DNA of 64,000 nt from Oceanicoccus sp. KOV_DT_Chl (GTDB lineage: Bacteria; Pseudomonadota; Gammaproteobacteria; Pseudomonadales; Dasaniaceae). Below, one piece after another: positions 7,893 through 51,349 of the stretch. The notes beneath the pieces are model-generated. The model saw nothing but the letters and a program-made list of their open reading frames with translations. It searched no databases and was not told the origin of the DNA. The translations under genes and the position numbers were made by a program. The number at the start of each line of letters is the position of its first letter. The first letter of the stretch is position 1. The DNA lies in assembly GCF_900120175.1 (NCBI RefSeq), contig NZ_FQLF01000002.1, positions 1,364,001-1,428,000 on the forward strand. The letters run 5' to 3'.

Positions 7893-9548
7893 TTAACTAT
7901 CGAATTTCACAAATTTATCATCATCTTCGTCACTAGCTAGTGTTGATTGATCCTGGTCTGAATCTGCCGACCTTAAAGGCACCGCTGTAGACCGAGTATT
8001 TCTATAATGCTTTAAATTTCCAAGACGAAAATAGGATATGGATTCCTGTAGCTGCATAGCTTGTGAGCTCATCTCCTCTGAAGTTGAACCTAACTGCTCT
8101 GACGCAGCAGCATTCTGCTGCATGGTTTGGCTGACTTGACCAATAGCACTGTTGATTTGATCGACACCCGAGGCCTGTTCCGATGACGCTGCTGCTATCT
8201 CCTGAACTAAATCAGCAGTTTTTTGAATGGACGGTACCATTTGCTGCAATAAAGTACCGGCTAAATCTGCCCGCTTAACACTTTCACTAGCTAGCTCACC
8301 AATATCCTGTGCTGCCACCTGACTTCTTTCAGCCAACTTTCGCACTTCAGACGCCACTACTGCAAACCCTCTACCATGCTCGCCCGCTCTTCCCGCTTCT
8401 ATCGCAGCATTAAGTGCTAATAGATTTGTTTGATAGGCAATATCATCAATAACACTAATGCGCTCAGCAATTTTCTGCATCGCTTCAACGGTTTGTGAAA
8501 CGGCTTCTCCACCTTTACCCGCATCAGCCGAAGCCTGCTGCGCCATACCATCGGTTACACTGGCATTCTCGTTATTCTGCGAAATAGACGCTGACATCTG
8601 CTCCATAGAGGCGGACGTTTCCTCAACACTCGCAGCTTGAATTGAAGCCCCTTTTGAAAGTGACTGCGCCGTTGAACTAACTTCCTCAGCCGCAGAAGAT
8701 AATGAATCAGCGGAACTTCTGACCTCTGAAATAATTTCAGTTAAACGATCTTTCATATTACTGACAGATGCTAACAAGGAGGTGGTATCACCTTTACGTA
8801 ATTCAACTTCAACATCCAGCTGGCCGTCAGCGACTTTCTTAACCATAGCAGCAGTGTAAGCTGGCTCACCACCGAGCAGGCGAAACATATCCCAGAATAT
8901 CCATAGCATTATCGCAAGTATCAAAATAATGGACACAGTCATAATTTGGATAAACTCGGTTCTGGCTGCACTATACTGAGCAGCCACTTCAGTATTTGTC
9001 GATTTAATGAGGCGATTAAATTCCTCTTCCATAGCAACTGATATTTTTTCCATACCTTTACTAGCGTCACGATCAATTCCTTTGACGGCTTTATCAACTT
9101 TTTTTCCAGTCAGCTCATCTTTCGAATTAAAATTTTCTAAAGCGCTACGATATGCTATACCCAGCTTAGCGTGATCTTGTTTAACTTTTTCCAGGTTTTC
9201 TGCGTTCTTGCCAGCCTCTTTACTAAATTTAATTGCCTCAGCCAATGCAAGCTGAACATTGTCTTCTGCCTCATTAAATTGCTTTAAATATTTATCATAC
9301 GTTTTCTTATCATTACCCCTGATCAGAATATTCTTCCACTCCTGAACCTGACCCTTAAATTTTATATGCGCATTTTGTACATTTTGAAAAACATTACCAT
9401 TGCTCTGTATTTTTCCCAAGTTAAGCACGACAAAAGCATCAAACTTTTCCATAGTCGCCAGGGAATATGTACCCAAAAATATCATCGCCATCGCAATCAG
9501 TAACGACAGTATAGTAACTTTCATCTTTAAACTTAACTTGGCTAACAT
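7893..9548 (-). CDS. Methyl-accepting chemotaxis protein
   Basis: 551 aa. Two membrane helices (about 10-30 and 199-222) enclose a helical periplasmic domain of about 165 residues. A HAMP-like stretch follows, then a long coiled signalling domain whose hairpin tip ([40 protein letters not shown]) binds CheA/CheW. The C-terminus (KFVKF, residues 545-549, then DS) fits the x-[HFYW]-x2-[HFYW] pattern of CheR-binding pentapeptides. In P. aeruginosa this slot holds the soluble PAS-receptor Aer2/McpB; here the receptor is transmembrane, so the signal sensed differs. Confidence 0.93.
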
Positions 9549-12235: not shown

Positions 12236-12513
12236 ACAGCAACGTCCTCTTGCGTTAATATTTTCTTTAAGTTTAGCAAGTTCAATACTGAGTCAGCTGA
12301 ATCACTGATTTTAGTAAGCTTTATTGATTTTTCTTCAGCGACAGCGTGGGCGAACAACACTAACAATTGTGCGCCAGAAGTATCAATTTCAACTATACCT
12401 GATAAGTCTAATTTAAGATCTGCAGCACACCATTCTGGCTTAGCAAACAGTTTGGAAAAATCCTCTTTAGCAGTATAAATTGTCATCTCCCCACTAAAGA
12501 TAAGGTATAGCAA
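12232..12513 (-). CDS. STAS-domain protein (anti-sigma-factor-antagonist type)
   Basis: 93 aa, a single STAS domain: the FSGEMTIYTAKEDF strand-helix, then LDLSGIVEIDTSGAQLLVLF, where Ser/Thr phosphorylation usually occurs. Probably a cytoplasmic adaptor or switch protein. It sits between cheY and cheA and overlaps cheA by ATGA. Start is uncertain: the listed start is a TTG preceded by AGGTGG, while an internal ATG at 12486 would cut into the first strand. This gene is extra compared with P. aeruginosa che2. Confidence 0.85.
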   Translation of the reverse strand: MLYLIFSGEMTIYTAKEDFSKLFAKPEWCAADLKLDLSGIVEIDTSGAQLLVLFAHAVAEEKSIKLTKISDSADSVLNLLNLKKILTQEDVAV

Positions 12514-12551
12514 CCACCTGATTTTTTCGCCTTAATTTCCATGAGTAATAC

Positions 12552-12914
12552 TCATATAAGCATCGATACGGCTTTTAGCATTTGCTCAGGCTGGAACGGC
12601 TTAACAATCCAGGCTTTAGCTCCAGCGGCCTGACCTTGCTTTTTCTTTTCGTCCGCACCTTCTGTAGTGAGCATAATGATCGGGGTAAATTTATACTCAG
12701 CTAACTTTTTAACTTCTGTCACCATGGTAATGCCATCCATGTTCGGCATATTGACATCCGATATTATTAAATGAACTTTTGTGCCATTCAGTTTTGACAG
12801 TGCGTCTTTACCATCACATGCTTCAATTACGGTATAGCCCGCCCCCTTTAACGCAATTCCCACCACCTGCCTGACACTGGCCGAATCATCTACTACAAGA
12901 ATTGTTTTTGACAT
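12552..12914 (-). CDS. cheY: Chemotaxis response regulator CheY
   Basis: 120-aa single receiver domain with the full acidic pocket: Asp9-Asp10, phospho-acceptor Asp53 in ISDVNMPNMDG, Thr in MLTTEG, Lys105 in IVKPF. There is no output domain. Located between the first receptor gene and the STAS gene, it is the diffusible output or phosphate sink of this pathway. Confidence 0.94.
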   Translation of the reverse strand: MSKTILVVDDSASVRQVVGIALKGAGYTVIEACDGKDALSKLNGTKVHLIISDVNMPNMDGITMVTEVKKLAEYKFTPIIMLTTEGADEKKKQGQAAGAKAWIVKPFQPEQMLKAVSMLI

Positions 12915-12932
12915 AAATACTTTTTTCCTTTT

Positions 12933-14120
12933 TTAAAAAAATGTAACTTCTGACTCATCCGGAACGCCGGCACTTTCCCCTTGAGTATGCACGTCCACCT
13001 GCTCTAATGTCGTGAATGTTGCCTGCAACTTTTGCAGCCATTCATTAATATCAATATCGGGGACTACTTCTCCACTCCCTGCAGCCGCCTTGTGCTCTTT
13101 CATCAATGCCTCAAGCATATTCATGTCATTAACTACATGTTCTAGAATCTGCCTTACTCGATCCTGAAACTGCAGGGACACTAATACTTGCTCAACATCT
13201 TTTTGAACCCGACTACTTTCGCTGATCATGGTTGCGGAGGATTCTGTCATGCTATTACCAAAACTATTAAAATTCTCTAATACTCCGCGAATAGTTTCCT
13301 GCGACTGCTCCAGCGTCTCTTCTCCTTGCTTGGAAAATTGATCAGTGCTTTTTTGTGCAGCCTGTAGCAAGGCGTTCACCTCATCAATTCTTTCCGTTAT
13401 TCTTGCTCCCGTTTCCCCAGAGCGTGTTGAAAGCGTCCGCACCTCATCTGCGACCACTGCAAACCCTCGACCATACTCACCGGCACGCGCCGCCTCTATC
13501 GCTGCATTAAGTGCTAGTAAATTCGTTTGCGATGCAATGCCTGCAACTTCGTCACTCATTTCTTTCAGATCATCAGTAATAGCAGAGAGCCTACCAATAT
13601 CCTCAACCAGATTTTTTTGCGCCGCAATCGAATCGCGAAGTAATTCTATTAACTGCGACAACTCTTTTTCAGAATGTGCAATTATAGAAACCAGACTACC
13701 TTCAGCAATACTGTCACTGGTAGATTCCCGGGTCGTGGCTATGGCGATTTGTAGACGCTCGTAAATATCAGCAAAGGTTCTGGTAAGATCGTTAATGGCT
13801 TCTTCTGCCTGAGTTTGCGCCAAATTAGTTTGTCGAACCCATGCAGGTAACACTTCAATACAAAGATCACGATAAGCTCCCTGCTTTAATAACTTTTGCT
13901 GTGCATTAAGCTCTTGCTCTGCTTTGCTTTTAGCAGCCACCGCTTGATCAACAGAAAATTGCAAGCGCCGAATATTCAAAAAACTATAGACAAACGCCAG
14001 CAAAGCTATGATCACACTTGTGATAGCTAACATTAATGACGCCTCACCATAGGCCAATGCACAAACTACAATGACAGGGATGCTGCTGCTAACAACAAGA
14101 AGTTGTAGTCCTTTCTTCAT
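12933..14120 (-). CDS. Methyl-accepting chemotaxis protein lacking a periplasmic sensor
   Basis: 395 aa. Two closely spaced N-terminal membrane helices (about 5-25 and 28-50) with almost no periplasmic loop. A coiled region follows, then a receptor signalling hairpin ([32 protein letters not shown]). The tail has no obvious CheR-binding pentapeptide. First gene of the che operon, in the position of cttP/mcpA of P. aeruginosa che2. With no sensor domain it probably reads a membrane or cytoplasmic cue or a partner protein. Confidence 0.9.
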
Positions 14121-14702
14121 AACGATTAAAGCCGGCTTTTTTACGAGATGGATAAAGACTTCTTTTTCTAGCGTAGTTCATTAAAACTAGAAAGCCACAA
14201 GAGCCAACGATTAAGCTAATACCAACCAAGCATTTATTGTTTCATTGTGCTGGTAGCTTATATTTTGATAGTAGTCGAAATAAATTTATTGCGTTATAAG
14301 CAATTCTACTTAGGCTGCACAACTAATATAACTTCTACCTATATCGCAAATAATTATATTTAATTATTTTTTTATTATGATTTATTTCAATAAATTATAG
14401 CCCTATGCGCGATAGAGCATTTCTTTTGTCATTAATAGAGCCCCACTTCTATATTGTAGCCGAGCGATTAACTACGTTACTGATAGGCGCCACAAACTCA
14501 TCCAACCTTTACCCATACCGCGCAGTTAGTGATCACGCTCTTGTCAGACAGACTATTTAACTGACAATACTCATTCGCACTCAGCTTATCGATCACTACA
14601 CCTACTCGTGCTAGTATCCACCCGCTTTTGACAGACCAACTCAATGCTCGCCCAATGGTTACCCGCACTATTAACCCCAACTTAATTAATTAATGATTAA
14701 AG
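14121..14702. other. 582-bp AT-rich divergent gap upstream of the che operon
   Basis: No convincing gene; a 60-codon frame at 14498-14680 (-) has no family features. The half nearest the che operon carries an interrupted inverted repeat, TTTCTAG at 14165-14171 and CTAGAAA at 14187-14193. Very AT-rich DNA lies at 14340-14400. The promoters of both flanking genes should be here, but no strong -35/-10 pair was found. Confidence 0.4.
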
Positions 14703-19152: not shown

Positions 19153-19181
19153 ATACTAAGCACAAATGACAGCGCTGTCAA
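19153..19181 (-). promoter_or_regulatory. pgi promoter
   Basis: Reading leftward: TTGACA (19181-19176), 17-base spacer, TAGTAT (19158-19153), about 77 bp before the pgi ATG. The -35 and part of the spacer are covered by the NagR-type palindrome at 19167-19180. Confidence 0.65.
19167..19180. promoter_or_regulatory. NagR-type operator, pgi copy
   Basis: Perfect 14-bp palindrome TGACAGCGCTGTCA with the CG centre usual for LacI-family operators. It overlaps the -35 of the leftward pgi promoter and lies 155 bp before nagR, so it faces pgi rather than nagR. Confidence 0.75.
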
Positions 19182-19335: not shown

Positions 19336-20349
19336 GTGCGAGCAACCATCAACGATGTCGCCAACCAAGCCGGGGTTTCAATTAAAACCGTCTCGCGGGT
19401 GATGAACAACGAGCCATCCGTTAGCAAAACCACGCAGGAAAAAGTCCTCAAAGTTGTCAAGGCGCTAAACTACCAGCCGAATGCTGCGGCACGTAATTTA
19501 GCCGGCACCAAGTCTTATGCGGTAGCCTTTATCTACGATAACCCTAATGCTTATTACATTATCGATATGCAAAATGGTTTGTTATCCGCCTGTAATGAAC
19601 AGGGCTTTGAGCTACTGATACATCCCTGTAATGCCAAATCCCATGATATCAACGCCGAACTAACCGAAATGGTTAAGCGCTCCAGAGTAGCCGGCTTAGT
19701 ATTAACACCCCCTTTTTCAGAAATGCCCTCGGTAATCGAGACACTGGAAAAACTGGATGTAAAATTTGTCCGCATTCTCTCCGGCTCTGGCCAATCTGAC
19801 GGACGCTCACCTTGTATTTTTATCGATGACCGCGAGGCCGCCTTCGCTATCACCGAACACCTTATTGCTAGCGGACATCAGACTATCGGCTTCTTATGTG
19901 GCGACAAAGGCCACAATTCCAGCCAGGAACGCTTGATGGGCTATAAAGCAGCGCTCAAAAAGCATGGTATTCGCATTGATCGATCGCTGATTTTAGCGGG
20001 AGAGTACTCGTTTGAATCCGGCGTTAATGGTGCCAAAAAATTATTATCGAAGGAGCAGCGACCCACCGCCATTTTTGCCTCCAACGATGAAATGGCTGCC
20101 GGCGCATTATTCGCCGCCCGCCTGATGGACATCGATATACCCTCGCAACTGGCCATCACCGGGTTTGAAGATAGCCCTTTCTCACGCCAGACATGGCCAA
20201 AACTGACCACCGCTCAGCAGCCTACCAGTACTATCGCCCGCAGTGCCGCTGAACTGTTGATTCAAGCCACGCGCAATCAATCCACAGAAAATAATTTCAC
20301 TATCTTTACCCCCGAGCTTATCGTGAGACAATCCACTCAAGCCGAATAA
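19336..20349 (+). CDS. nagR: LacI-family transcriptional regulator of GlcNAc genes
   Basis: 337 aa starting at GTG. An N-terminal helix-turn-helix (TINDVANQAGVSIKTVSRVMN) and hinge (NYQPNAAARNLAG) are followed by a periplasmic-binding-like sugar domain. It sits between pgi and nagA. Five copies of a LacI-type palindrome occur at promoters of GlcNAc genes in this window and nowhere else that I found, so a NagR repressor role is inferred. The effector is probably GlcNAc or GlcNAc-6-phosphate, which the sequence does not decide. Confidence 0.85.
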   Translation: MRATINDVANQAGVSIKTVSRVMNNEPSVSKTTQEKVLKVVKALNYQPNAAARNLAGTKSYAVAFIYDNPNAYYIIDMQNGLLSACNEQGFELLIHPCNAKSHDINAELTEMVKRSRVAGLVLTPPFSEMPSVIETLEKLDVKFVRILSGSGQSDGRSPCIFIDDREAAFAITEHLIASGHQTIGFLCGDKGHNSSQERLMGYKAALKKHGIRIDRSLILAGEYSFESGVNGAKKLLSKEQRPTAIFASNDEMAAGALFAARLMDIDIPSQLAITGFEDSPFSRQTWPKLTTAQQPTSTIARSAAELLIQATRNQSTENNFTIFTPELIVRQSTQAE

Positions 20350-20398: not shown

Positions 20399-20426
20399 AT
20401 GACAGCGCTGTCTTTTATGCTATAAT
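20399..20426 (+). promoter_or_regulatory. nagAB promoter
   Basis: ATGACA (20399-20404), 16-base spacer, perfect TATAAT (20421-20426), 52 bp before the nagA start. The operator at 20400-20413 covers the -35. Confidence 0.7.
20400..20413. promoter_or_regulatory. NagR-type operator, nagA copy
   Basis: TGACAGCGCTGTCT, one mismatch from the perfect palindrome, lying across the nagAB -35 region. Confidence 0.72.
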
Positions 20427-20477: not shown

Positions 20478-21668
20478 ATGAAACACGTAATCACCGGCGC
20501 CACCATTTTTGATGGCCAACAAATGCTGTCCCAACACAGTCTGGTACTTGAAAATCAGCGCATCCACAGCATTATCAGCAACGAACAGATTGATTCCAGC
20601 CTGACCAGCACGCAGCTTAGGGGCGGCACTTTATCGGCTGGGTTTATCGATCTACAAGTGAATGGCGGCGGCGGGCTACTGCTGAATAACGCCGCCACGC
20701 CCAACACCATTAAAACCATGCTAAAGGCCCACCGCAGCAAAGGTGTTTGCGCCATGCTACCCACGGTGATCACCGATACTCGAGCAATAACAGCAGCAGC
20801 TATCGACGCCGTAAGAACGCTCCGCCAACAACAGTACCCTGGCGTACTGGGTTTACATATTGAAGGCCCGTTCTTTAATCCCCAGCGTCGGGGCGTGCAC
20901 CAACAAGATCATATTCGCAAACTGAGCACCGAGGATATTGATTGGCTATGCAACCAAGCTGACATCCCCATCATGCTGACGTTAGCTCCAGAGCAAACAG
21001 AAGCCGGACAAATCAAAGCTCTATCCGAAGCCGGCATTATTGTCTGTGCCGGCCATACTGACGCACTGGCTGCGGATATCGAACGCGCCTTCGCTGAAGG
21101 CTTACAAGGATTTACTCATTTATTTAATGCCATGCGTCCTATGAGCAGCCGTGAACCCGGCGTGGTCGGTGCAGCATTGGCAGATAATGATAGCTACTGC
21201 GGTATTATTGTTGACGGCCACCACAACCATCCGAGCACAGTATTAGTGGCCCACAAAGCCAAGGCGGCAGGCCATCTTTATTTGGTATCCGATGCAATGG
21301 CAACGATCGGCTCCGACAATAAAACCTTTGAGCTTTACGGCGAAACGATTACTGAGAAAGAGGGCTGTTTATTTAATAGCGAAAATCGTTTGGCCGGTAG
21401 CGCTATCGGTTTAATCGACGCAGTGAAAATCAGCCACCAAACGGTTGGCCTGCCGTTGGATGAATGTTTAAAAATGGCATCGCTATACCCGGCGCGCTTT
21501 ATCCAACAGCAACAGCATTTCGGCCATATCAGTAGCGGCCTCAACGCTAATCTGGTGCATTTTGATGACGACTTTCAAGTCACCCACAGCTGGGTGAACG
21601 GCGACATGGAAAGCCACCCGGGCACCGATCATCTAGACAACGACCAGCAGGAGCATAACCACTTATGA
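20478..21668 (+). CDS. nagA: N-acetylglucosamine-6-phosphate deacetylase
   Basis: 396 aa amidohydrolase that converts GlcNAc-6-P to GlcN-6-P and acetate. Motifs are [11 protein letters not shown] (N-terminal metal region), [44 protein letters not shown] and the catalytic Asp in [10 protein letters not shown]. It is first in the nagAB operon and overlaps nagB by ATGA. Deamination by NagB follows directly. Confidence 0.95.
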
Positions 21669-22456
21669 AAGTAGTTATTCTGGAAACCCCACAAGCGGTT
21701 GCCAACTACGGCGCTGCCATGTTTATTCGTCAGTTAACGAGCAAACCAACGTCGGTACTGGGATTAGCTACCGGCTCAACTCCATTGGCGCTCTATCAAC
21801 AGCTTATCGCTGCTAATCAGGCAGAGATAATTTCTTTCAAACAATGCAGCACGTTTAATCTCGATGAATATTTAGGACTGGCGCCGGAGCACCCGCAAAG
21901 CTACCGCCACTTTATGAATGAGCAGTTTTTTCAACACATTGATATTGAGCTAAGCAACACCCACGTACCCAATGGCGCTGCGCAAAATCCACTGACTGCA
22001 GGGGATGAATATGAAGCACTTATTAAAGCTCACGGTGGTATCGATATTCAATTACTGGGCATAGGACGCAATGGTCACGTCGGCTTTAATGAACCGTCTT
22101 CTTGTCTGGCCTCCCGGACACGGGTAAAAACACTGACCCAAGCCACCATTGACGATAACGCACGTTTTTTTAGCGCCGAGGAATACCAACCGCACTTATC
22201 GATCACGATGGGGATTGGCACAATTATGGAAGCGCGCAATGTGGTGTTACTGGCTACCGGCGAATCAAAAGCAGAGGCTATTCAAGCGACGGTGGAAGGA
22301 CCACTTAGCGCATCATGCCCCGCCTCCGCATTACAAATGCATTTATCCACCACCTTGATTATTGATGATGCAGCGGCATCAAAACTTAAAGACAAAGCAT
22401 TTTATCAGCATATCGAACGGGAAAACCAAGCCCTGTTGAAACGACTCTCGCATTAA
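21665..22456 (+). CDS. nagB: Glucosamine-6-phosphate deaminase
   Basis: 263 aa, canonical NagB fold: [16 protein letters not shown] (phosphate loop), FNLDEYLGL (Asp/Glu of the active site) and [15 protein letters not shown] (catalytic His). Converts GlcN-6-P to fructose-6-P and ammonia. This is the classical type, not the SIS-domain NagB-II found in Shewanella. It is coupled to nagA by a 4-bp overlap and followed by a strong terminator. Confidence 0.95.
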
Positions 22457-22515: not shown

Positions 22516-24351
22516 TTAATCTTCCAGCCGGTTCCACCAATATTTCTTTAACAACACACAGCAAATAGCAAACACCAACACACTAACGGCCAGACTATCA
22601 AAACGTCTCACCACCAGGAATATTGGAATTACCACCAACATCATCTGCCAGACAATACCTACCAATATATTAAAGGCATCGTAAGAAAAATTATTATTGC
22701 GTTTAAAGTCTGGGTTCTCAGCAATAACCTTTTCGGCAATCGGCCCCCAAAAACCCCAAGGACGAGTTTGCCGATAAAAATTCTTGAGTACTTCTTCATT
22801 ATCAGGCGCGGTCAACAAACATCCCAGTACACTACCTAATATTGCAAAGACAAACAGGAATGGAAATTGCTCAATCGCCAATAAATGCAAGCCCATACTC
22901 TCCAGTAATGGCGGAATAATAGCAACGCCGACCATCCCGCTCAACATACCAAAGAAAAACCCATAGCCATTAAAGCGCCACCAAACCCACTTCAACACAT
23001 TGGAAGCTACATAGCTCCCGTAAAGCAAGCCCACAATCCAGTCTGTGCGCGCTTGTATATTACCGCCAGCCAAACCAAAGCCAACCCCGATCACAACGAT
23101 GCTCGCAGTAACAATATAGCTAAGCCGCATATAAGTTTTATCATCAGCCTTGTCATTGATATATTTACGGTAAATATCATTCACTACATACGCCGAACCG
23201 GCATTAATAAAAGCGGCAAATGTCGACATAAACGCCGCTAACAATCCCGCCAACAATAAACCCTTAAACCCTGGCCCGACATACTCACTGATTGCATAGG
23301 GCAGCACTTGCTCAAAATCCAACTTGCCATTAGTGCCCTCTAAATTACTGGGGTCCATATACACCAGCGCCAGCACAGCAATACCTGCAATCATGAAATA
23401 ACGTGGAAACGACAAAACTACCGGAGTCAGACCAAACATTTTGGCGGCTTCCGACGGTGAACGGGTACCTAGAATGCGCTGCATATCATAACTGGGAACA
23501 GGGCCCGCCAAACTGGCAAACACCCCTTTAAATAACATCAACATAAAAAGAAAACCAAACAGGCCGTAACCATCATCTTCTATTCGCTGGTCTGCTGCGG
23601 GTAATATATTCGACCAATCCAATCCCAATTCCCAGCCAAACCACAGGCTATCCCATCCCGCAGGGACTGCTGCCTGAATCTGTTCGGCCGTGGTAGAAAA
23701 AATGGCAATAAACCCGACAATTAAACAGGCCACTGTCATAATTAAAAACTGCAGCACTTCAGTACCAACGACACTGTAAAAGCCGCCTTTCAACGTATAT
23801 AGGGTAGTAATAGTAATAATGGCCAACGCATAGCTATCTTCATTGCTAATAGCCACACCAGCGATTGAAAATGATAAATCCCATGGCAAAAACTGCGCGG
23901 AAAACTTGCCTATACCTTCAACAAAATACGCCATAAAGGCGATCACAATCACCACCGCAAAAATGACAGTAGCGATGTGCGACAGCCTGCCTCCAATCGA
24001 CTCACCAAAACGAAAACTGATCCACTGGGCCCCCGTCAGAACATTCGACCGTCGCATCCACGCAGCTAAAAAAACCATCATGAAAATCTGATTCCATACC
24101 GGCCACAACCAGGGTATCCATGCACTTTTCAAACCGTATACAAACAACCAGGCTACGGCAATCATGGTACCAGACACATCAAACATGCCTGATGCATTTG
24201 AAAGACCGAGGTAATACCAGGGAATGTCATTACCAGCCAAAAAATAGCTTTGCATATTTTTACTGGCTTTTGCCGACAGGTAAAAACCCAAACCCACTGT
24301 GGCAACTAAAAAACCAATAATAATGACTATATCAATCGTTGCTAAATTCAT
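22516..24351 (-). CDS. Sodium/solute symporter (SSS family), probable GlcNAc transporter
   Basis: 611 aa from the ATG at 24351, with about 14 hydrophobic helices from the N-terminal IDIVIIIGFLVATVGLGFYL onward. SSS features are YFLAGNDIPWYYLGLSNASGMFDVSG and GLLLAGLLAAFMSTFAAFINAGSAYVVNDIY. It belongs to the large sodium:sugar symporter subgroup. The frame continues to a TTG at 24375, but AAAAGAG sits 8 bases before the ATG. It follows the hexosaminidase gene in the nagK-led operon, so GlcNAc (or chitobiose) import across the inner membrane is inferred. Confidence 0.85.
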   Translation of the reverse strand: MNLATIDIVIIIGFLVATVGLGFYLSAKASKNMQSYFLAGNDIPWYYLGLSNASGMFDVSGTMIAVAWLFVYGLKSAWIPWLWPVWNQIFMMVFLAAWMRRSNVLTGAQWISFRFGESIGGRLSHIATVIFAVVIVIAFMAYFVEGIGKFSAQFLPWDLSFSIAGVAISNEDSYALAIITITTLYTLKGGFYSVVGTEVLQFLIMTVACLIVGFIAIFSTTAEQIQAAVPAGWDSLWFGWELGLDWSNILPAADQRIEDDGYGLFGFLFMLMLFKGVFASLAGPVPSYDMQRILGTRSPSEAAKMFGLTPVVLSFPRYFMIAGIAVLALVYMDPSNLEGTNGKLDFEQVLPYAISEYVGPGFKGLLLAGLLAAFMSTFAAFINAGSAYVVNDIYRKYINDKADDKTYMRLSYIVTASIVVIGVGFGLAGGNIQARTDWIVGLLYGSYVASNVLKWVWWRFNGYGFFFGMLSGMVGVAIIPPLLESMGLHLLAIEQFPFLFVFAILGSVLGCLLTAPDNEEVLKNFYRQTRPWGFWGPIAEKVIAENPDFKRNNNFSYDAFNILVGIVWQMMLVVIPIFLVVRRFDSLAVSVLVFAICCVLLKKYWWNRLED

Positions 24352-24428
24352 TGGTAAAACTCTTTTATGCTCCAATCAATTAATGAAGCTATTAAAATAT
24401 GATTTATTAATGTGCTCTCACTGCACGA

Positions 24429-26659
24429 TTAACGCACTACAATCTCATCGATATAAACCGGCATAGCGATCACAGCATTATCTTCTTCACTGAAACCGCG
24501 ATTAGTATTTTCAACGTCTACCTTCAAATAACGCGAATATATTGCTGAAAAAGGAATATCTATCCGCGGCGAAGATTGCTGTATCTGCTGAGTCTCAACT
24601 GCTGCAACAAGCTGCCATTCCTGTTGGTCAGTAGATACCCATAACTTTATTGCCGTAGGCAAATACAAAGTGCGGTATAAACCTGCCTGATAACCGATAT
24701 CCACACCAGATAACTCGGCCAAAGACTCCAGTTCAATAATGGCCGTCAAACCGCTTTCATCAATCGCATACCATTCGTGAAACTGAAATATTCTATCTGT
24801 CGCTAACTGGCCGTTTACAAGTAACGATGCAGTCTGCTCACTTGCTTGTTGAACACTAATCGTTTTCCCTATGGCTTTGTGTGGCACTACAGTCAAACGC
24901 TCATCACCGTAAGCCTTGTTATTGTCTGAATCAAAGGCAATAGCGCGCACTACTGTCATTGCAGTGATCGGTAACGGCAATTGATAGATTTCCGACTGAA
25001 TGGTTGGCTTGCTACCATCAAGGGTATAACGGATTTCCAGCGCAGCAGATGCGACTGATAAGTTGACGCAAAGATTTTCACTTTCTACAGTCGCACTGGC
25101 TAATACTTTACAATCACTCTCAGCTACGGTGTAAGACAAGCCCTTAAGCTGGTTTACTACAGGCTTTAGCCGTTGCTGAAACGAAGACCAACTTTTATTT
25201 TCTACCGCTGACCACAACACTTCAGCCAGCGCAGTCATCCGCGGCAATACCATATACTCAACCCGCTCGGGGTAGACATATATTCTGTCCATACATTAGC
25301 TTGCGCACCTAAGATATTTTTTTGCTGCGCAACGGTTAGACCTTCAGGGACAGGCTCATATTCATACACTTTCTTTAGGGGTGTTAAACCATGAATCGCC
25401 ATTGGCTCATCACAAGATGTCGCTTGATAAAAATCAAAGTACAAAGCATCAACTGGTGTCATCACCACCTGATGACCTTTGATCGCCGCTTGCTTGCCAC
25501 CGGCTATACCCTGCCAGGACATAATGGTTGTACTGCTATCCACATCAGCATCCAACACTTCATCCCAACCGATAAGCTTTTTATCTAACTTTCTGGCGAT
25601 CGCCTCCACCTGCTCAATAAAATAACCGTGCAAAGCTTCGTAATCGTCGGTATTTAATGTGGCCAATACACTTTGGCAGTAGCTGCACTCATGCCAGCGT
25701 TTTTTCTTTACTTCGTCACCACCTATATGAACATACGCACCAGGGAAAAGCTCTGCGACTTCAGCAAGCACCACTGCTAAAAATTCAAACGTTTCAGGCT
25801 TGGCGCAAAGTACATCGGTAAAAATGCCAAACCGGGTTTGCACTTTGAAGTTTTTATTGTCGAGATCACAAGCAAGCTCTGGATAAGCCGCTAACAGTGC
25901 CGCCGCGTGACCTGGTATATCAAGCTCAGGAATGATAGTAATATGACGCTGATCAGCGTAAGCGACGATCTCTTTTATTTGTTGCTGGGTATAAAATCCT
26001 CCATGACGACGGCCATCAAAATGAACATTACTATTAGACGTATGCCCAACGACTGTTTGCTCGCGCCACGCACCTACTTCAGTAAGCTTTGGATAAGCTT
26101 TTATTTCAATGCGCCAACCCTGATCATCAGTCAAGTGCCAATGAAAGACATTCATTTTATGAAACGCAATTAAATCAATATAGCGCTTGATGAATTCCAC
26201 TGACAAAAAATGTCGACTCACATCAAGGTGCATACCACGATAAGCAAAGCGCGGGCTATCAGTGATAACCAAGTAAGGCAAGCTATCGCCTGCCTGATAG
26301 TAAATTTGATTTAAGCTCTGCAGCCCATAAAAAATACCGGCGGTGCTGGATGCTGAAATGGTAACGCCATTATCATCAATAATTAGTCGATAGGCCTCAT
26401 GATCACCCTGCTTTGCAGAAGATTTTAACAATAAGGAAATATTAGCGTTAGCTGGTTCTTCTATTTGCTGGCAGACTTTATCTTTAAAGAGTGAGGCCGA
26501 TATAAACTTGGCCGATGCCTGTAGATCACTGTCATTAGTATAAATATCAATACAATTATTGAGATGAAAAATTCCTGAATAGAAATCCAGTGCACTGGGC
26601 TGTGGTATTAACATAATGTCAGCAGACTTATTCACTATACCTTTCATAGTGTCAGCCAC
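24429..26659 (-). pseudogene. Beta-N-acetylhexosaminidase (GH20), frame-disrupted
   Basis: Releases GlcNAc from chitin oligosaccharides. N-terminal GH20b-like domain, then the catalytic barrel with DVSRHFLS, HWHLTDDQGWRIEI, IPELDIPGHA and the catalytic Asp-Glu in HIGGDEV. The frame ends at 25235 and continues in another frame from the VEYMVLPRMTALAEVLWS segment to 24429, with a C-terminal discoidin-like region. One base lost from the G run at 25269-25272 would join them into about 743 aa. The listed start is a GTG with weak ribosome binding. A lipoprotein leader lies just upstream in another frame (26654-26711). Part of the nagK-hexosaminidase-symporter operon. Confidence 0.85.
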
Positions 26660-26794: not shown

Positions 26795-27700
26795 CTACAG
26801 CGCTGCCCGCCAAAATTCCATTTCTTTTTTGGCAAAATAAATGGCGCCTGCTTCAGGCTGATCCAACGGACTGGAGAAACGCCCCACCACATCCTGGTCC
26901 ATCCACGGCATTAACCGCTCGCTCAAACCGCCAAGTAACGATAACCGTGCAGGGTTATCGGCAAGCAACTTTCGGGCAATCATACTTAAATAACAGGCTC
27001 CATCACGGATGATCCCAACCGCCACCGCATCATTCTTTTCAGCTGCTTCTATCACCAATGGCGCTAATTGCGCGTATTTTCTGGGTGAAGCGCCTACCAT
27101 TACCTCTACCAAGCCCAACCCTTTAGTACCTAATTTAGCTGATAACAGCTCGGTTAATTGCGTAGCTTCTGCCAACCCATCCTGTGCTAATAACACCGCC
27201 TTCATGGCTTCAAGCCCTAACCAGGCACCACTACCTTTATCGCCTGCTGGAAAACCATGTGCACCATATATAGCCGTTTTGTTTTTGGAATAGATATAGC
27301 CACAGGAACCTGTTCCGGCAACCATCACTGCACCCTCTTCACCACCGTGTGCACCTAGACAGGCTATATGTAGATCTGTAGTTAAAAATAATCGCTTGAA
27401 TGGATGCTGCCATTCTTGCATGACTTGATACAAACTGGGTAAGTTGACACCGGCTAAACCGACTCCGGCAACAACTTGTGAGATGTCATTTTTTTCGAAG
27501 CCTGCTGCTAACAAAGCCATTTGCGCCGATGACTGAATAGATTCTATGGCTTGCTCAATACCATGAACAGGATTTGCCGGGCCGGCAACTGCAGAGCCAA
27601 GCACACGGAATTTTTCATCCACGACTCGCGCTTTACATTTACTACCACCTCCGTCGATTCCAAGATAGATCGTTCGCTCATTCTTAAAAGCAGAGTTCAT
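26795..27700 (-). CDS. nagK: N-acetylglucosamine kinase, BadF/BadG/BcrA/BcrD ATPase family
   Basis: 301 aa ASKHA-fold kinase. It has phosphate-1 loop YLGIDGGGSKCKARV (about 12-26), VAGVGLAGVN, phosphate-2 VMVAGTGSCGY and an adenosine-type LSLLGGLSE near residue 270. It phosphorylates GlcNAc after import, supplying NagA. First gene of the leftward operon with hexosaminidase and symporter. A NagR-type operator lies on its promoter about 110-140 bp upstream. Confidence 0.9.
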   Translation of the reverse strand: MNSAFKNERTIYLGIDGGGSKCKARVVDEKFRVLGSAVAGPANPVHGIEQAIESIQSSAQMALLAAGFEKNDISQVVAGVGLAGVNLPSLYQVMQEWQHPFKRLFLTTDLHIACLGAHGGEEGAVMVAGTGSCGYIYSKNKTAIYGAHGFPAGDKGSGAWLGLEAMKAVLLAQDGLAEATQLTELLSAKLGTKGLGLVEVMVGASPRKYAQLAPLVIEAAEKNDAVAVGIIRDGACYLSMIARKLLADNPARLSLLGGLSERLMPWMDQDVVGRFSSPLDQPEAGAIYFAKKEMEFWRAAL

Positions 27701-27811: not shown

Positions 27812-27840
27812 AGACTACGCAATAATGACAGCGCTGTCAA
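27812..27840 (-). promoter_or_regulatory. nagK operon promoter
   Basis: Leftward TTGACA (27840-27835), 17-base spacer, TAGTCT (27817-27812). It begins right after the halogenase stop codon, so nagK has its own start point. The operator at 27826-27839 covers the -35. Confidence 0.6.
27826..27839. promoter_or_regulatory. NagR-type operator, nagK copy
   Basis: Perfect TGACAGCGCTGTCA palindrome between the halogenase gene and nagK, placed over the -35 of the nagK promoter. Confidence 0.75.
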
Positions 27841-29328
27841 TTACAAAGAAGGATCGCTAATCCCCAAAATTTTTGCATGACTGACAAAATACTCAGATAA
27901 CTTTTCACTCATTTCCTTGGCCTGCGCCATTGGCGCCACATAACCCTCTGGAGGTTTATTTAGCTGATCGGGAAACCGCCCCATGCCTGAAAAAATACAA
28001 TACCAACTAGGCAAAGTATAAGCCTGGCTTTTTGCTTCGGCCTCGAAATCAATACCGGAATCCCAGCTATTAATTATTCGCTGTAACTTTTCTGAAATAT
28101 TTTTATTATTCCGATTATCAATCCAGTATTTTGAGTCCTCTCGAGTATTTAACTTGTAGTGGAGAACTATATAATCACGCGTCTCTTCAAATGCATGATT
28201 TACAAGATCATTAAATTTATTGTAGTTTTTTTCATTTTTTTTATACTGCTTGATAAATTCTTCCAGCGTGTATTGAACCAACCCCAGCGCCGTCGCCTCT
28301 AAAGGTTCGATAAAACCTTGAGACAAACCAACTGCCAAACAGTTATTACGCCAGTGATTTTTTATACGTCCTACACGCATCTTTATGTGCCGCGCTTCTT
28401 GATCGGTACCACTATCTCCAATATGCCTTCGAAGCTCCGCCTCTGCCGCATCAGCTGACAGGTAATCTGACGAATAAACATAACCATTACCAAAACGATT
28501 GGTTAGCGGAATCTTCCACGCCCATCCACAACTAAGAGCCGAGGACTGCGTTTCAGAAGGAATATTTTTAAAATCGGTAATTCGGCTAGGAATTGCAACT
28601 GCACTGTCATTAAATAAGTTTTCTGAAAATGAAATAAACGGCTCTTTTAAAGCTTTATTAATCAATAAACCAATAAAACCTGAACAATCTACAAATAAAT
28701 CAGCATTTAAAATACCAACGCAATCCGTCTCCAGATGGCTAATATCTCCATTCACTTCTAACGGAATATCGATAACATTACCCACAACATGAATAACGCC
28801 ACCCTCAATAGCTTTTCTTTTTAAAAAACTTCCTAATAAACCTGCATCAAAGTGGTACGCATAATCTTGTTTTGCAGGTAATGATCCTATGGAAATTGGT
28901 GCTTGGAAATTTCTTGATAAGGCAGCAGCTAAAAAATAATCATCGGGATGAGCTGGCGCATCATAACCTCGACGACGAACTGTGCAATTATGGAAAAAAG
29001 CTTCTGCCATTGGTCCATCCCATTCAGAAAAGAATGGATGGAAATAACTCTCAAATCCACGTTTTGTTGACCACCCAGGAAAACTTATTCCACATTTATA
29101 CGTTGCATTACACGCCGGCATCCACTCTTCTTCAGCAATGCCAAGTTTTTCAAAAAACTTCCGCATATACGGCGTTGACCCCTCGCCAACCCCAATAATT
29201 CCTATATCAGATGATTCTATCAGTGTTACCTTACAGCCTGCATCTTTCCAAGCATGATTAAGCAGCATAGCTGACATCCAGCCCGCCGTACCACCACCTA
29301 CAATCACAATTTTCTCTGGAATCGACAT
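27841..29328 (-). CDS. Flavin-dependent tryptophan halogenase-family protein
   Basis: 495 aa from ATG 29328. N-terminal FADH2 site IVGGGTAGWMSAMLL, the GVGEGSTPYMRKFF segment, a conserved Lys in CNATYKCGISF (matching the catalytic Lys region), FVDCSGFIG, and the halogenase hallmark WAWKIP. The frame runs up to 29394 but that stretch is a terminator hairpin; AAGG lies about 10 bases before the chosen ATG. It stands between the TonB receptor gene and nagK. Family members in such loci are common in marine bacteria, but a halogenation substrate is not known to me, and it may act on something other than free tryptophan. Confidence 0.85.
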   Translation of the reverse strand: MSIPEKIVIVGGGTAGWMSAMLLNHAWKDAGCKVTLIESSDIGIIGVGEGSTPYMRKFFEKLGIAEEEWMPACNATYKCGISFPGWSTKRGFESYFHPFFSEWDGPMAEAFFHNCTVRRRGYDAPAHPDDYFLAAALSRNFQAPISIGSLPAKQDYAYHFDAGLLGSFLKRKAIEGGVIHVVGNVIDIPLEVNGDISHLETDCVGILNADLFVDCSGFIGLLINKALKEPFISFSENLFNDSAVAIPSRITDFKNIPSETQSSALSCGWAWKIPLTNRFGNGYVYSSDYLSADAAEAELRRHIGDSGTDQEARHIKMRVGRIKNHWRNNCLAVGLSQGFIEPLEATALGLVQYTLEEFIKQYKKNEKNYNKFNDLVNHAFEETRDYIVLHYKLNTREDSKYWIDNRNNKNISEKLQRIINSWDSGIDFEAEAKSQAYTLPSWYCIFSGMGRFPDQLNKPPEGYVAPMAQAKEMSEKLSEYFVSHAKILGISDPSL

Positions 29329-29351
29329 CACTCTGACCTTAAGCAGCACAA

Positions 29352-29379
29352 ATAAAAAAGCCGGGGTAAACACCCCGGC
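29352..29379 (-). terminator. Strong terminator between TonB receptor and halogenase genes
   Basis: Leftward GC-rich 8-bp stem GCCGGGGT/ACCCCGGC with a four-base loop, then T6. It lies 110 bp after the receptor stop and only 24 bp before the halogenase ATG, so halogenase mRNA must come from read-through. A smaller hairpin without a T run lies at 29448-29467. Confidence 0.88.
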
Positions 29380-29488
29380 AAACACTATCATCAAAGCATC
29401 AATACTGATTTGATAGACAGGGAGACATAATGAAATCTGAATATATTAGCGGGCATCCATACCCGCTTAAGTACCTTAACGACTAGTT

Positions 29489-32215
29489 TTAAAACTGATA
29501 GTTTAAGCCAACAAAGAAGCGACGACCATTATCAATTTGCGTAGTCGTCATTTCTACGCCATCAGGAGCTACATGATACTGTTCAATAATTTCATCAGTT
29601 AGATTCAATGCCTCTACACGAATAGTCAGATTTTCTGTAGCGAAAATTGACAACTGTGCATCAATACGGGCTTGCTCTTCACGATTGAAGTCACCTGATT
29701 CAGCAGCTCTCTCGAAGTACTCCGAACGGTAGTTATAGTTGATACGTGCACTGTACAGCTGCTGCTCGTAAAAGGCTGAAATATTATAGCTATCTTTTGA
29801 AACACCTGGGAGAGTGATATTTCTTGCTACCAAAGTAGCATCGCCATCAATCAAGGCAGCATCATTTACCGACACACTACCCGCATCGGTATATGTGTAA
29901 TTGGCAGTAACACCAAATCCATTATCCCACATGTGCTGAGCAACTAGCTCAACCCCTTCTAAAGTTACTGAAGGACCATTTTCAGGACGAGTAATCAAAA
30001 ACGTTTCACCATTTATATCATCGGCAAAAGTCGATGAATAAATAAAGTTTTGAATATCTTTCATGAATACCGTAGCGGAAAGCATGGATCCCGACTGGTA
30101 ATACCACTCGATACCCAAGTCATATTGATTTGCAATTAACGGGTCAAGCTCTGGATTACCAGTATCGCCACGACGATTCTCTACCGTTAAATTCCTGGCA
30201 GAAGTTAATTCAAATGGCGCTGGACGAGCCATTGTTCTACCTGCGGAAAAACGCGCCTGAATGTCATCAGTGATACTATACACTGCATTCAAGCTTGGTA
30301 AGAACTCACTGTACTTTCCTTCGAGTTTTGTACTAACTGGAGTTGCAGCTGAAACATCCCATGCACTTGAGGTCGTTTCAGTTTCGACATAACGCACACC
30401 AAAGTTACCACGCAGATTACCCTGCTCGAAGTTAGCCATAGCATAAAGCGAAGTTATATCTTCTTGCACACCATATGAAGCATCATAAACAAACTGGGAT
30501 CCGGTTCGACAAACAGCGGTATCACCATCCACACAAACAGCCAAATCACTAAAAGCCTGCTGCATTAACGCCTGATTAGGCTGAAATACTGTAGTGCTCC
30601 GCTGACTGGTTTCGTCATGATCAATTGTATAACTACCGCTAGCATAATCACCAGCCGTACCCAGGCTAGCACTTAGATCACCAGCTTGGGATGTATTAAT
30701 CATATTGTCTTTAGTGCGCTCTTGAGTAAATTCACGATCGCGATACTTAAAACCGACTTTAATCTGGTTAATCGCTGCAAACTCAACGTCCAAAGTACCA
30801 TCTAACTGTAAATAGTCTTCTGTGTCTTCAGACTCTGTCGTTTGATTAAACGCAGCGGTTAACAACATTTCATCTGTAGGGTTAGCCAACCAAGGGCTTC
30901 GTGAATAATCAACATCAAAGCCATTGCCACCACTGTTGTAGTAATCAAAGTTGGCGCGTGTATCTTGGTTATGAGCAAAAAATTCGAAAAAATTATCTTT
31001 AGCAACACCCTTGCCTGTAGTCGTACCTATTTGGCCGTGCAACTCAAAACCTGCGCCCGTATAAGTACCTTCAAAGTCAATAATTTCTGTCTCAGCTTTT
31101 GAGCCATCACGATAGATATTGTCGTAGGCCATATGGTTGTTCCAGCCCAAATCCTGGAAAGTTTCCGAACCACCACTTACTTCCAGCGAATCAACAATAC
31201 CGTTAGTCACAGTACCAGTAGCGGGCTGATTAGTCAGGAATAAACCCCGAAATGGAATAGCCAGCATATTTTGGTTTACATTATCCGCCTTTAGCTCACT
31301 AAAGAAATAATGAAAATTTGTATCCAGGTTTGCTGTGGGTTTCCACTGTAAATTTACATCAACACCATCACGCTCACGGTTCTGTTCAAAAAGAGCCGAG
31401 CCTGCCGCCCAAGGCGTATACCCTTTCTCAGCAGCGCCTGTTGGTGCGGCAAAGTCATCTCCAAGGCGTGTAACTGACGGCCCAAATACATCTATAACTT
31501 CAGCGGTTTCACGGCGAACTGTGCGTTCTTGATGGGATAACGCCACCATCACACCAAAATTTTCATCGGCATTTTTCCAGCTATAAATACCTGAAAATGC
31601 CGGATCCCAATCTTCTGCCAAATCGTTATATTGGCCTTCGACATTAATATTTAATGTATTGGCCTCCATCTGCAAGGGCTTACGGGTTTTTAATATTACT
31701 GTACCGCCAATACCACCTTCATCTACATCAGCCTGTGCAGTTTTATATACCTCTACACCAGCTATCATTTCTGAAGAAAGCATTTCAAAATTAAAATTAC
31801 GCTCTGCCTCACTCAATACAAACCATTGAGCCGTACCAACAGCTTGACCATTAACCAGAGTGATATTGTTATCTCCATCCAAACCACGAATTGCAATATT
31901 CTGGCCTTCACCAAAATCACCAGAAATAGTAATACCAGGTACACGACCCAAGGCCTCTGCTACGTTTTTATCTGGAAACTTGCCAATATCTTCTGCGCTT
32001 ATTGCATCAACCACTGCGTTAGCAAAACGCTTGGTATTCATCGCGTCATTTAAACTACCGCGAATACCTGTTACCACCACCTCTTCCAGCTGGGCGCCTT
32101 CCTCGGCATTTGCTGCAGCCGCCATTGTCATGGCTAGCAGCGCACTTAATGAACCAGAAACCAACGTTGTTTTGGCGCGGTTCGCATTACGAATTGCTTG
32201 TCTTAATTTGGACAC
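29489..32215 (-). CDS. TonB-dependent receptor, probable chitooligosaccharide/GlcNAc uptake
   Basis: 908 aa starting at GTG with GAGGGG 8 bases upstream. Signal peptide (about 1-37), TonB-box-like EEVVVTGIRGSL, plug domain with FPDKNVAEALGRVPGI, IAIRGLDGDNNITLVNG and GIGGTVILKTRKP, and a long beta-barrel ending in VGLNYQF with terminal Phe. It is the oligosaccharide-type family known as NagP/CtpA-like in GlcNAc loci. Two NagR-type operators flank its promoter, supporting a role in taking up chitin breakdown products. Confidence 0.9.
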   Translation of the reverse strand: MSKLRQAIRNANRAKTTLVSGSLSALLAMTMAAAANAEEGAQLEEVVVTGIRGSLNDAMNTKRFANAVVDAISAEDIGKFPDKNVAEALGRVPGITISGDFGEGQNIAIRGLDGDNNITLVNGQAVGTAQWFVLSEAERNFNFEMLSSEMIAGVEVYKTAQADVDEGGIGGTVILKTRKPLQMEANTLNINVEGQYNDLAEDWDPAFSGIYSWKNADENFGVMVALSHQERTVRRETAEVIDVFGPSVTRLGDDFAAPTGAAEKGYTPWAAGSALFEQNRERDGVDVNLQWKPTANLDTNFHYFFSELKADNVNQNMLAIPFRGLFLTNQPATGTVTNGIVDSLEVSGGSETFQDLGWNNHMAYDNIYRDGSKAETEIIDFEGTYTGAGFELHGQIGTTTGKGVAKDNFFEFFAHNQDTRANFDYYNSGGNGFDVDYSRSPWLANPTDEMLLTAAFNQTTESEDTEDYLQLDGTLDVEFAAINQIKVGFKYRDREFTQERTKDNMINTSQAGDLSASLGTAGDYASGSYTIDHDETSQRSTTVFQPNQALMQQAFSDLAVCVDGDTAVCRTGSQFVYDASYGVQEDITSLYAMANFEQGNLRGNFGVRYVETETTSSAWDVSAATPVSTKLEGKYSEFLPSLNAVYSITDDIQARFSAGRTMARPAPFELTSARNLTVENRRGDTGNPELDPLIANQYDLGIEWYYQSGSMLSATVFMKDIQNFIYSSTFADDINGETFLITRPENGPSVTLEGVELVAQHMWDNGFGVTANYTYTDAGSVSVNDAALIDGDATLVARNITLPGVSKDSYNISAFYEQQLYSARINYNYRSEYFERAAESGDFNREEQARIDAQLSIFATENLTIRVEALNLTDEIIEQYHVAPDGVEMTTTQIDNGRRFFVGLNYQF

Positions 32216-32324: not shown

Positions 32325-32338
32325 TGACAGCGCTGTCA
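32325..32338. promoter_or_regulatory. NagR-type operator, TonB receptor copy 1
   Basis: Perfect TGACAGCGCTGTCA, about 7-20 bases beyond the predicted -10 and so over the expected transcription start of the receptor gene. Confidence 0.75.
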
Positions 32339-32344
32339 TGGAAA

Positions 32345-32373
32345 ACTCTAATTAGATATGACAGCGTTGTCAA
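32345..32373 (-). promoter_or_regulatory. TonB receptor promoter
   Basis: Leftward TTGACA (32373-32368), 17-base spacer, TAGAGT (32350-32345). The -35 is inside operator copy 2. Confidence 0.6.
32359..32372. promoter_or_regulatory. NagR-type operator, TonB receptor copy 2
   Basis: TGACAGCGTTGTCA, one base from perfect, centred 34 bp from copy 1. The pair brackets the promoter. Confidence 0.72.
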
Positions 32374-50557: not shown

Positions 50558-51349
50558 TCAAGCCACGATCAATTGCGACTCTACCTCGGCAGAATATTTA
50601 ACCCGCTCTCTTTGCACCCGCATAATTGACCGCTCCAGAATACGCTGCTCCTGAACCGGTAAATCCAAAAACTCGGCACCAATCACTAACTTATGATCAT
50701 CCGCTGGATCAACCTCAACACTGCGCACGGTAACGCCACAGTCCACATTAATACCTGCAAAATCAAATACCAAATGATCAAAACGGTCATTGTAGTGAAA
50801 TGCTAAATCGTTGGCGGCACTCGCCGTTTCAATTTCTAGCGAAATACCGGTGCTGGAAACATTCCTGAGTCTGCCACAATAGGGCTGCTGATCAGGACCA
50901 ATAAAATGCGAATCAATGGCCACATTCCTAATCGGCAAACGATAAGCACTACGACGCTGATCAGTTTCTATATCTTTAGGCATTGCTAACACATAGAGTG
51001 GTGCATCATTATGCAAATAGCTCTCGGTAATTACCGAATCAAATTTTATTTTTCTACCTTGTTGCAAGCGAATACTGAGCTTTACTTTTTGCCCAGCCAA
51101 ACCGGTAAAGCCAACGGGGAATAGCTCATCAATCAATACCGTCCGCTCTTCAGGATCCAGCTCTAGAATCATACTTTGGTAAACCACCTCATTACCCGCC
51201 ACCATGACTTCGATAAAGCTGCGATCACGCTGGGCGCGATGCAGCTGCAGGTAAGTTTGGTTTAACGCCAGATCGACTTTACCTGGCGAAGCGTTATTAC
51301 CTACGCCTCTACCATAGTCTCTTAAACGATTTAACAGCGCTGTAATCAT
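50558..51349 (-). CDS. PilZ-domain c-di-GMP-binding protein
   Basis: 263 aa. N-terminal YcgR-N-like beta domain (about 30-130) and C-terminal PilZ domain (about 131-245). The c-di-GMP motifs are RRSAYRLPIR (RxxxR) and NVSSTGISLEIE ((D/N)xSxxG). It probably acts as a soluble receptor adjusting motility or surface behaviour. It is monocistronic and convergent with the IS. It pairs thematically with the EAL response regulator in the che operon. Confidence 0.88.
   Translation of the reverse strand: MITALLNRLRDYGRGVGNNASPGKVDLALNQTYLQLHRAQRDRSFIEVMVAGNEVVYQSMILELDPEERTVLIDELFPVGFTGLAGQKVKLSIRLQQGRKIKFDSVITESYLHNDAPLYVLAMPKDIETDQRRSAYRLPIRNVAIDSHFIGPDQQPYCGRLRNVSSTGISLEIETASAANDLAFHYNDRFDHLVFDFAGINVDCGVTVRSVEVDPADDHKLVIGAEFLDLPVQEQRILERSIMRVQRERVKYSAEVESQLIVA

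Follow-up and report, generated by a model that had tools for sequence, protein, structure and literature searches.

A flavin-dependent halogenase as a candidate accessory of the TonB-dependent receptor in chitin-sugar loci

The N-acetylglucosamine (GlcNAc) locus of Oceanicoccus sp. KOV_DT_Chl carries a flavin-dependent halogenase gene behind the gene of a TonB-dependent receptor, and on balance we favour the reading in which the encoded enzyme, BrvH-like and catalytically competent, acts as an accessory to a receptor for chitin oligosaccharides or GlcNAc. The recurrence of such enzymes in chitin-sugar loci, in several gene orders, points to an accessory role in nutrient uptake and not to antibiotic synthesis. 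With a subclade linked so tightly to a single receptor type, a single operator and a single sugar, the question of the substrate becomes accessible to a directed experiment: if the receptor is the substrate, proteins of the outer membrane would be subject to a new kind of modification, and if it is not, the locus still supplies a physiological condition under which the product can be sought.

In the open-access literature, we found no report in which halogenases of this family are connected with TonB receptors or with GlcNAc loci (an earlier report in a subscription journal is possible), and such a link is absent from the consulted passages of PMC8269204, PMC5945002, PMC7336383, PMC2996990 and PMC11870441. 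Passages of PMC11337851 describe raised halogenase transcripts, assigned to Colwellia sp. MT41 and to phages, and a separate TonB receptor signal, the two not being joined; PMC3377617 and PMC3684763 are, in the passages at hand, on PrnA, though they mention both “tryptophan halogenase” and “TonB-dependent”.

A halogenase gene within a predicted NagR-type regulon

The window, by which we mean the whole stretch of 64,000 nucleotides that was analysed, holds on its minus strand, in this order, the receptor, a terminator, the halogenase, nagK, a GH20 hexosaminidase and a sodium symporter. The features of the locus are as follows.

19336–20349, plus strand: LacI-family regulator, presumed NagR (operator at 19167–19180)
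20478–22456, plus strand: nagA and nagB
22516–24375, minus strand: sodium:solute symporter (PF00474)
24429–26659, minus strand: GH20 beta-hexosaminidase in two overlapping frames (26659–25235 and 25292–24429)
26795–27700, minus strand: nagK, N-acetylglucosamine kinase (NF046058 equivalog)
27826–27839: NagR-type operator upstream of nagK, directly past the halogenase stop
27841–29328, minus strand: flavin-dependent halogenase gene (PF04820, 495 aa, EPLEATAL subfamily)
29350–29379, minus strand: intrinsic terminator in the receptor–halogenase gap, an 8-bp stem with 7 G-C pairs and a T-tract
29448–29467, minus strand: second hairpin, without T-tract, directly behind the receptor stop (from the fold of 29470–29329; role putative)
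29489–32215, minus strand: TonB-dependent receptor gene (TIGR01782 profile match), the partner of the halogenase
32325–32338: NagR-type operator 1 upstream of the receptor, a perfect TGACANCGNTGTCA
32359–32372: NagR-type operator 2 upstream of the receptor, a perfect TGACANCGNTGTCA overlapping the -35 element of the promoter-like site 32373–32345

All scanned neighbours of the halogenase in the window are sugar genes, and genome-wide it is the only PF04820 gene, against 59 plug-domain matches. Its likely start is the ATG at 29328–29326, preceded by AAGG at 29340–29337; the ORF ends with its stop at 27841, and an alternative longer frame from a TTG at 29394 would cross the terminator. Position 29379, the end coordinate in the initial annotation, marks where the terminator stem begins on its 5′ side; the gene itself most likely starts at 29328. 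A UnbV/ASPIC gene of the source genome was rejected as a member of the locus, lying about 1.36 Mb away from the halogenase.

The palindrome TGACANCGNTGTCA, which we take to be the NagR-type operator consensus, occurs four times in perfect form in the window (19167, regulator; 27826, nagK; 32325 and 32359, receptor), each time at a nag promoter. With up to two mismatches there are seven sites compared to 1.8 expected, the three imperfect ones lying at 20400 before nagA and, outside the locus, at 51332 and 63572; at the same stringency, the window scan gave no operator between receptor and halogenase. Operator 2 overlaps the TTGACA of the promoter-like site 32373–32345, which has 10 of 12 matches. 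The consensus was found repeated in related nag loci: L065, L069, L083 and L101 each have two perfect boxes in the interval from receptor to regulator, and near the receptor start, with one mismatch allowed, two or more boxes are present in 10 of the 11 loci L145–L155, L155 having one. The presumed NagR is 52–60% identical to the LacI-type regulators encoded in 11 nag loci of Alteromonadaceae, and with an operator before its transcription unit, the halogenase locus is predicted to belong to the regulon of this LacI-type NagR.

According to passages of PMC2996990, the nag regulon of Shewanella and other Alteromonadales comprises a LacI-type NagR, a novel Nag kinase and a TonB receptor, omp-Nag. 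The window shares these three components, and its NagK model is named after SO3507, whereas no halogenase is mentioned for Shewanella, the word “halogen” having no occurrence in the main text of PMC2996990. The label “NagP-type receptor” that had been given to the window receptor is a misnomer, since NagP of Shewanella is described as a sugar permease and the receptor is listed there as omp-Nag (PMC2996990).

Catalytic residues and a short C-terminal loop

The description of the gene as an intact flavin halogenase with WxWxIP and FAD motifs between the TonB receptor and nagK holds. The PF04820 match scores 423.5 bits (cut-off 21) and extends over residues 6–457, covering positions 1–450 of the 458 of the profile; the FAD motif GGGTAG comprises residues 11–16 and WAWKIP residues 269–274. 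G11, G13, G16, W269, W271, I273 and P274 are unchanged in 44 of 44 aligned halogenases, as are K78 and E344, which align with the Lys and Glu of Th-Hal. Their counterparts in PrnA are presumably K79 and E346. A third published halogenase motif, Fx.Px.Sx.G (Gkotsi et al, via PMC7336383), is not matched in the window enzyme, which has F339 and P342 but A345 and A347. BrvH and Xcc4156 likewise depart from it, the last position being Ser in BrvH (PMC7336383), Asn in Xcc4156 and Ala in the window enzyme.

The structure model (pLDDT 93.9) matches Xcc4156, PyrH, PrnA and BrvH about equally (Z 42–46), and among the first 48 fold matches listed nearly all are titled halogenase, so that structure alone does not tell the substrate. 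BrvH from Brevundimonas BAL3 (Z 42.8) and Xcc4156 from Xanthomonas campestris (Z 45.6) have the same fold, and where the structures align they are about 36% and 29% identical to the window enzyme, respectively. PrnA, RebH, PyrH and Th-Hal have the fold, the FAD and WxWxIP motifs and the Lys and Glu in common with the window enzyme; the tryptophan halogenases differ in genomic setting and in a C-terminal insert. In the alignment with PrnA and BrvH, the C-terminal stretches of the window enzyme and BrvH are almost gapless, whereas PrnA has an additional insert of about a dozen residues, so that the insert of free-tryptophan halogenases is absent from the window enzyme. In PrnA, residues that bind tryptophan lie in this insert.

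The short C-terminal loop is the same in BrvH, and according to passages of PMC7336383 the catalytic lysine of BrvH and Xcc4156 is exposed to solvent owing to their short loops; by analogy, a bulky or polymeric substrate is plausible for the window enzyme. As of 2018–2020, no natural substrate was known for BrvH or for the Xanthomonas halogenases (PMC5945002, PMC7336383, passages). The FAD fold of the window enzyme starts at about residue 5, leaving no room for a signal peptide, and the enzyme is thus probably cytoplasmic.

Conserved pairing with the receptor in chitin-sugar loci

Among 147 Alteromonadaceae genomes, we found the receptor in 11 and the halogenase in 10 at the cut-offs used, nine genomes having both (Fisher p = 8e-12). 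Within the loci, receptors and halogenases were located with profiles iterated from the window genes, which may miss distant receptors, so that receptor counts are lower bounds. The window receptor shares 43–52% identity with the receptors of these nag loci. The pairing that the initial annotation had asked to be surveyed across genomes turned out to be conserved, as 10 of the 11 orthologous receptor loci hold a halogenase beside the receptor or its regulator, with 13 enzymes in all. The gene order is variable: the halogenase follows the receptor in L147, L150, L151 and L155 and the regulator in L145, L149 and L153, and L146, L148 and L152 each have two halogenases of the same clade in the nag locus, one behind the receptor and one behind the regulator. 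A position behind the LacI regulator is also seen in L065, L069, L083 and L101 (5 bp apart in L065). The locus L154 has the receptor and operators and no halogenase; its genome, G500, contains three PF04820 genes elsewhere. Judged from gene content, the pairing is conserved though patchy.

Additional genes accompany some of the pairs. FG-GAP/UnbV proteins are encoded behind the halogenase in L147, L150 and L151, and L155 encodes, at 12275–14248 on the minus strand, a protein whose helical domain resembles that of vanadium chloroperoxidase (a weak match, E 2.8e-7), next to an FG-GAP/UnbV-ASPIC protein. Vanadium-chloroperoxidase-like and FG-GAP/UnbV-ASPIC proteins likewise stand beside the receptor–halogenase pairs of L043 and L047.

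Receptor type and halogenase switch together

A nag locus of the same genus (genome G005) has the order receptor, nagK, hexosaminidase, symporter and nagB without a halogenase, and no PF04820 match was found in G005 genome-wide. Compared to the window, nagK is 63%, the symporter 85% and nagB 82% identical, the receptor only 37%. The locus of G077 is ordered like that of G005, the PF04820 matches there being weak and partial; in G051, SapC and cupin_8 genes lie behind the receptor in place of the halogenase and one full PF04820 gene is located elsewhere in the genome. Receptor type and halogenase thus appear to change as a unit while the catabolic genes stay.

Across the 12 loci with all four genes, halogenase distances correlated with those of LacI (Mantel r = 0.87), NagK (0.80) and the receptor (0.65). 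Co-evolution specific to the receptor, whose r is lowest, is therefore not supported over co-inheritance of the locus; the higher values for LacI and NagK indicate that the halogenase is inherited with the locus and not with the receptor alone. As the comparison of loci stands, the link between halogenase and receptor rests on adjacency and the joint swap.

A terminator and predicted read-through

The strong terminator that had been noted before the halogenase start was confirmed: its 8-bp stem begins at 29379, ends at 29360 and is followed by TTTTTTATTT, the fold of 29390–29345 has −17.7 kcal/mol (z = −3.8 versus 200 dinucleotide shuffles), and 23 bp separate the end of the T-tract from the ATG. 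It is singled out by this stem and not by its site class, as the scanned 10 kb contain seven terminator-like sites versus 8.7 in shuffles, no enrichment as a class. A separate promoter between receptor and halogenase was also looked for, and the consensus scan gave no promoter-like site on the minus strand from 29489 to 29328. The nearest such site, with 9 of 12 matches, lies inside the receptor gene at 29556–29528, and the scanned 10 kb hold seven promoter-like sites altogether, below the 23 in shuffles. Taken together, the terminator, the missing separate promoter and nagK's own operator make read-through from the receptor promoter the simplest predicted source of halogenase expression, which is the reading of the initial annotation.

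Read-through had also been thought to give few halogenase copies per receptor. In favour of this, terminator-like hairpins are present in 23 of 49 receptor–halogenase gaps of the wider family (2.4 expected from dinucleotide shuffles), compared to 3 of 19 same-strand gaps between receptors and other genes (1.0 expected; Fisher p = 0.016). Convergent gaps have them in 2 of 5 cases (0.3 expected), halogenase–halogenase gaps in 0 of 14, a weak control since these gaps are short (median 12). The gap sets omit the loci L112–L144, which duplicate others. As a fixed rule for the chitin-sugar type, however, the proposal failed: of the seven closest receptor–halogenase gaps (L146, L147, L148, L150, L151, L152 and L155) a single one, that of L155, contains a terminator-like site, by which conservation of the terminator across the closest loci was rejected, and several enzymes lie behind the regulator. 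The receptor–halogenase gap of Microbulbifer L082 also holds a terminator-like site. Across the family, the distance from the end of the T-tract to the halogenase start ranges from −2 to 109 bp, leaving scant room for a promoter in some gaps, not in all. Attenuated read-through would thus be a recurrent, not a fixed, device.

The wider family of receptor-associated halogenases

In the best 80 loci of 590 confirmed matches from a scan of species genomes for relatives, the residues around the catalytic Glu split the halogenases into three kinds. EPLESTGI comprises solved tryptophan halogenases such as Th-Hal and most actinobacterial rows, EPLEATAL is the subfamily of the window enzyme, and EPLESTSI forms a second group that often stands in tandem with EPLEATAL, a common arrangement in the best 80 of 590 being receptor, then EPLESTSI enzyme, then EPLEATAL enzyme. 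These best 80 of 590 loci contain 57 EPLEATAL enzymes, 22 of which lie behind a same-strand receptor (8 directly, 12 via another halogenase and 2 via a cupin_8 protein plus a halogenase). For another 15 the flank contains a receptor in some other position, for 19 no receptor was found in the flank (up to 8 kb), and one enzyme is at a contig end.

Within the order, 16 of 95 genomes contain a halogenase relative, counting the genome of the window, and the closest other is 50% identical; within the class, 8 of 369 genomes have matches with E ≤ 1e-100, again counting that of the window. At E ≤ 1e-160 the receptor search of the 369 class genomes returned the window's own only, with at most two candidates scored per genome, so that absence is not inferable from this count; at E ≤ 1e-100 the 95 order genomes gave three others (38–40% identical).

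The first halogenase tree had 67 of 137 entries (the EPLEATAL type in loci numbered L032 and above, seven outgroups and two enzymes of the order; the EPLEATAL-like rows L009, L029 and L031 were left out), the second 87 rows after four near-duplicates had been dropped and L145–L167 added; the partial halogenase of L101 is in neither, and both trees were built quickly, with no bootstrap. In one 23-row clade (SH-aLRT 96; quick tree, no bootstrap), the window enzyme groups with the 13 Alteromonadaceae enzymes, the remaining members being those of L065 (Alteromonas), L083 (Aestuariibacter), Microbulbifer L081 and L082, Burkholderiales L032–L034, L040 and one of the two of L156, the other being a long branch outside the clade. 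The receptor tree, whose deeper joins carry long-branch warnings, contains subgroups matching those of the halogenases (L147/L150/L151/L155; L148/L152; L146/L149/L153; L081/L082/L156; L032–L034).

SapC and mostly cupin_8/JmjC genes follow receptor and halogenase in L010, L013, L014, L019, L023, L027 and L031, and in L158 SapC/cupin_8-type genes replace the halogenase behind the receptor, as if oxidative enzymes (halogenase, cupin_8/JmjC) were exchangeable as receptor accessories. Near the pair of Microbulbifer L082 are genes for an N-acetylmuramoyl amidase, an NlpC/P60 protein, a GH3 enzyme, an epimerase-like MR_MLE protein and an RpiR regulator, and the locus looks like one for muropeptide use; L081 resembles it in gene sizes.

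Possible substrates

In the course of events that we propose, an inducer (GlcNAc-6-P or a relative) would relieve NagR repression, the receptor would then be made in quantity, and the terminator would pass a fraction of the transcripts, giving a catalytic amount of halogenase. The enzyme would stay in the cytoplasm, obtain FADH2 from a reductase encoded elsewhere, together with O2 and halide, and, through K78 and E344, modify an electron-rich aromatic group that belongs to a bulky substrate. As the leading candidate for this group we regard an aromatic side chain on the receptor polypeptide prior to its export, and as the second an aromatic molecule entering with the sugar.

In its specific form, namely that an aromatic residue of the nascent receptor, with Trp269 as the candidate, is halogenated or hydroxylated before export and that this tunes ligand binding at the surface, the proposal is an unlikely one. 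SapC and cupin_8/JmjC proteins would, if receptors are modified at all, be further receptor-modifying enzymes. At the position of Trp269 (numbered from the first codon of the window receptor ORF), all 21 aligned same-type receptors with a halogenase in the locus have Trp, as does L154, and three related receptors without halogenase have Arg, Thr and Arg; the rows of L065, L069 and L101 are near-identical in this alignment and the contrast amounts to few tree events. The receptor model (pLDDT 82.9) matches BtuB, Fiu, Cir and other TonB receptors (Z 31–36), matches that say nothing on the ligand, and has Trp269 near the start of a long barrel strand (266–291), presumably at its outer end. A role in sugar stacking accounts for the Trp269 pattern equally well, and as a target common to the whole family the residue was rejected, not being Trp in receptors paired with other halogenase clades. 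The alignment makes Trp269 a candidate for the first place to look for a modification site.

A precedent for a receptor relying on a cytoplasmic oxidative enzyme is CciT-CciO of Caulobacter, a co-conserved pair of TonB receptor and cytoplasmic 2OG/Fe(II) dioxygenase under one regulator (PMC11870441). CciT strictly requires CciO yet reaches the outer membrane without it, by a mechanism given as unknown in the passages cited (PMC11870441). The window pair is alike in joining a receptor with a cytoplasmic oxidative enzyme, in co-conservation and in the single regulator; the Caulobacter pair differs in enzyme family, in serving iron and not sugar, and in having no halogenase.

The substrate might instead be a small aromatic compound imported with or attached to the sugar, the reaction being catabolic or detoxifying, which we regard as possible though rather doubtful. 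Catechols and the tyrosyl or bromotyrosyl groups of cuticle are examples of such compounds. The halogenase sits in the regulon of the sugar, and both the FG-GAP/UnbV proteins of some chitin-sugar loci and the weak vanadium-chloroperoxidase match in L155 hint at halogen or redox chemistry; BrvH, moreover, halogenates indole weakly, its natural substrate being described as unknown in passages of PMC5945002. Yet a close relative in Microbulbifer L082 is found with murein amidase, NlpC/P60, GH3 and epimerase-like genes, other subfamily members lie beside unlike receptors, which makes one shared small substrate unlikely, and no gene of aromatics catabolism was recognised among the scanned window genes.

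That the enzyme simply halogenates tryptophan or indole for secondary metabolism and is in the locus by chance is very unlikely: the Pfam family name and the fold shared with tryptophan halogenases (Z about 41–46) would suit it, but the placement is conserved in orthologous loci, the scanned neighbours are sugar genes and the tryptophan-binding insert is missing. A role connected with uptake, which the initial annotation had considered conceivable, is a better reading than one on free tryptophan. Loss of halogenation, which would leave a flavin monooxygenase or a flavin sensor in the regulon, is quite improbable. It could draw on A345 and A347, which replace the Ser and Gly of Fx.Px.Sx.G near the halide site (motif from PMC7336383), and on the position of the halogenase behind the regulator gene in several loci; the catalytic Lys and Glu are nevertheless unchanged in 44 of 44 members, and BrvH brominates (PMC5945002) although it deviates from the same motif, with Ser for Gly (PMC7336383), as passages of both papers describe. 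We retain the competent, receptor-accessory halogenase as the favoured reading.

Minor observations

The GH20 frame is broken at 25235–25292 of the window and, elsewhere in the gene, also in the same-genus genome G005 (L157:11954–12014); true loss, recoding and sequencing error are all possible causes. At 7986–7989 of L032, the halogenase ORF and the stop region of a histidine kinase gene share four bases; in L034, about 155 bases separate the end of a histidine kinase gene from the halogenase downstream. The halogenase of L037, titled a Klebsiella pneumoniae MAG, is nearly identical to that of the uncultured gammaproteobacterium L036 (branch lengths 0.02), and L037 is possibly a mislabelled bin.
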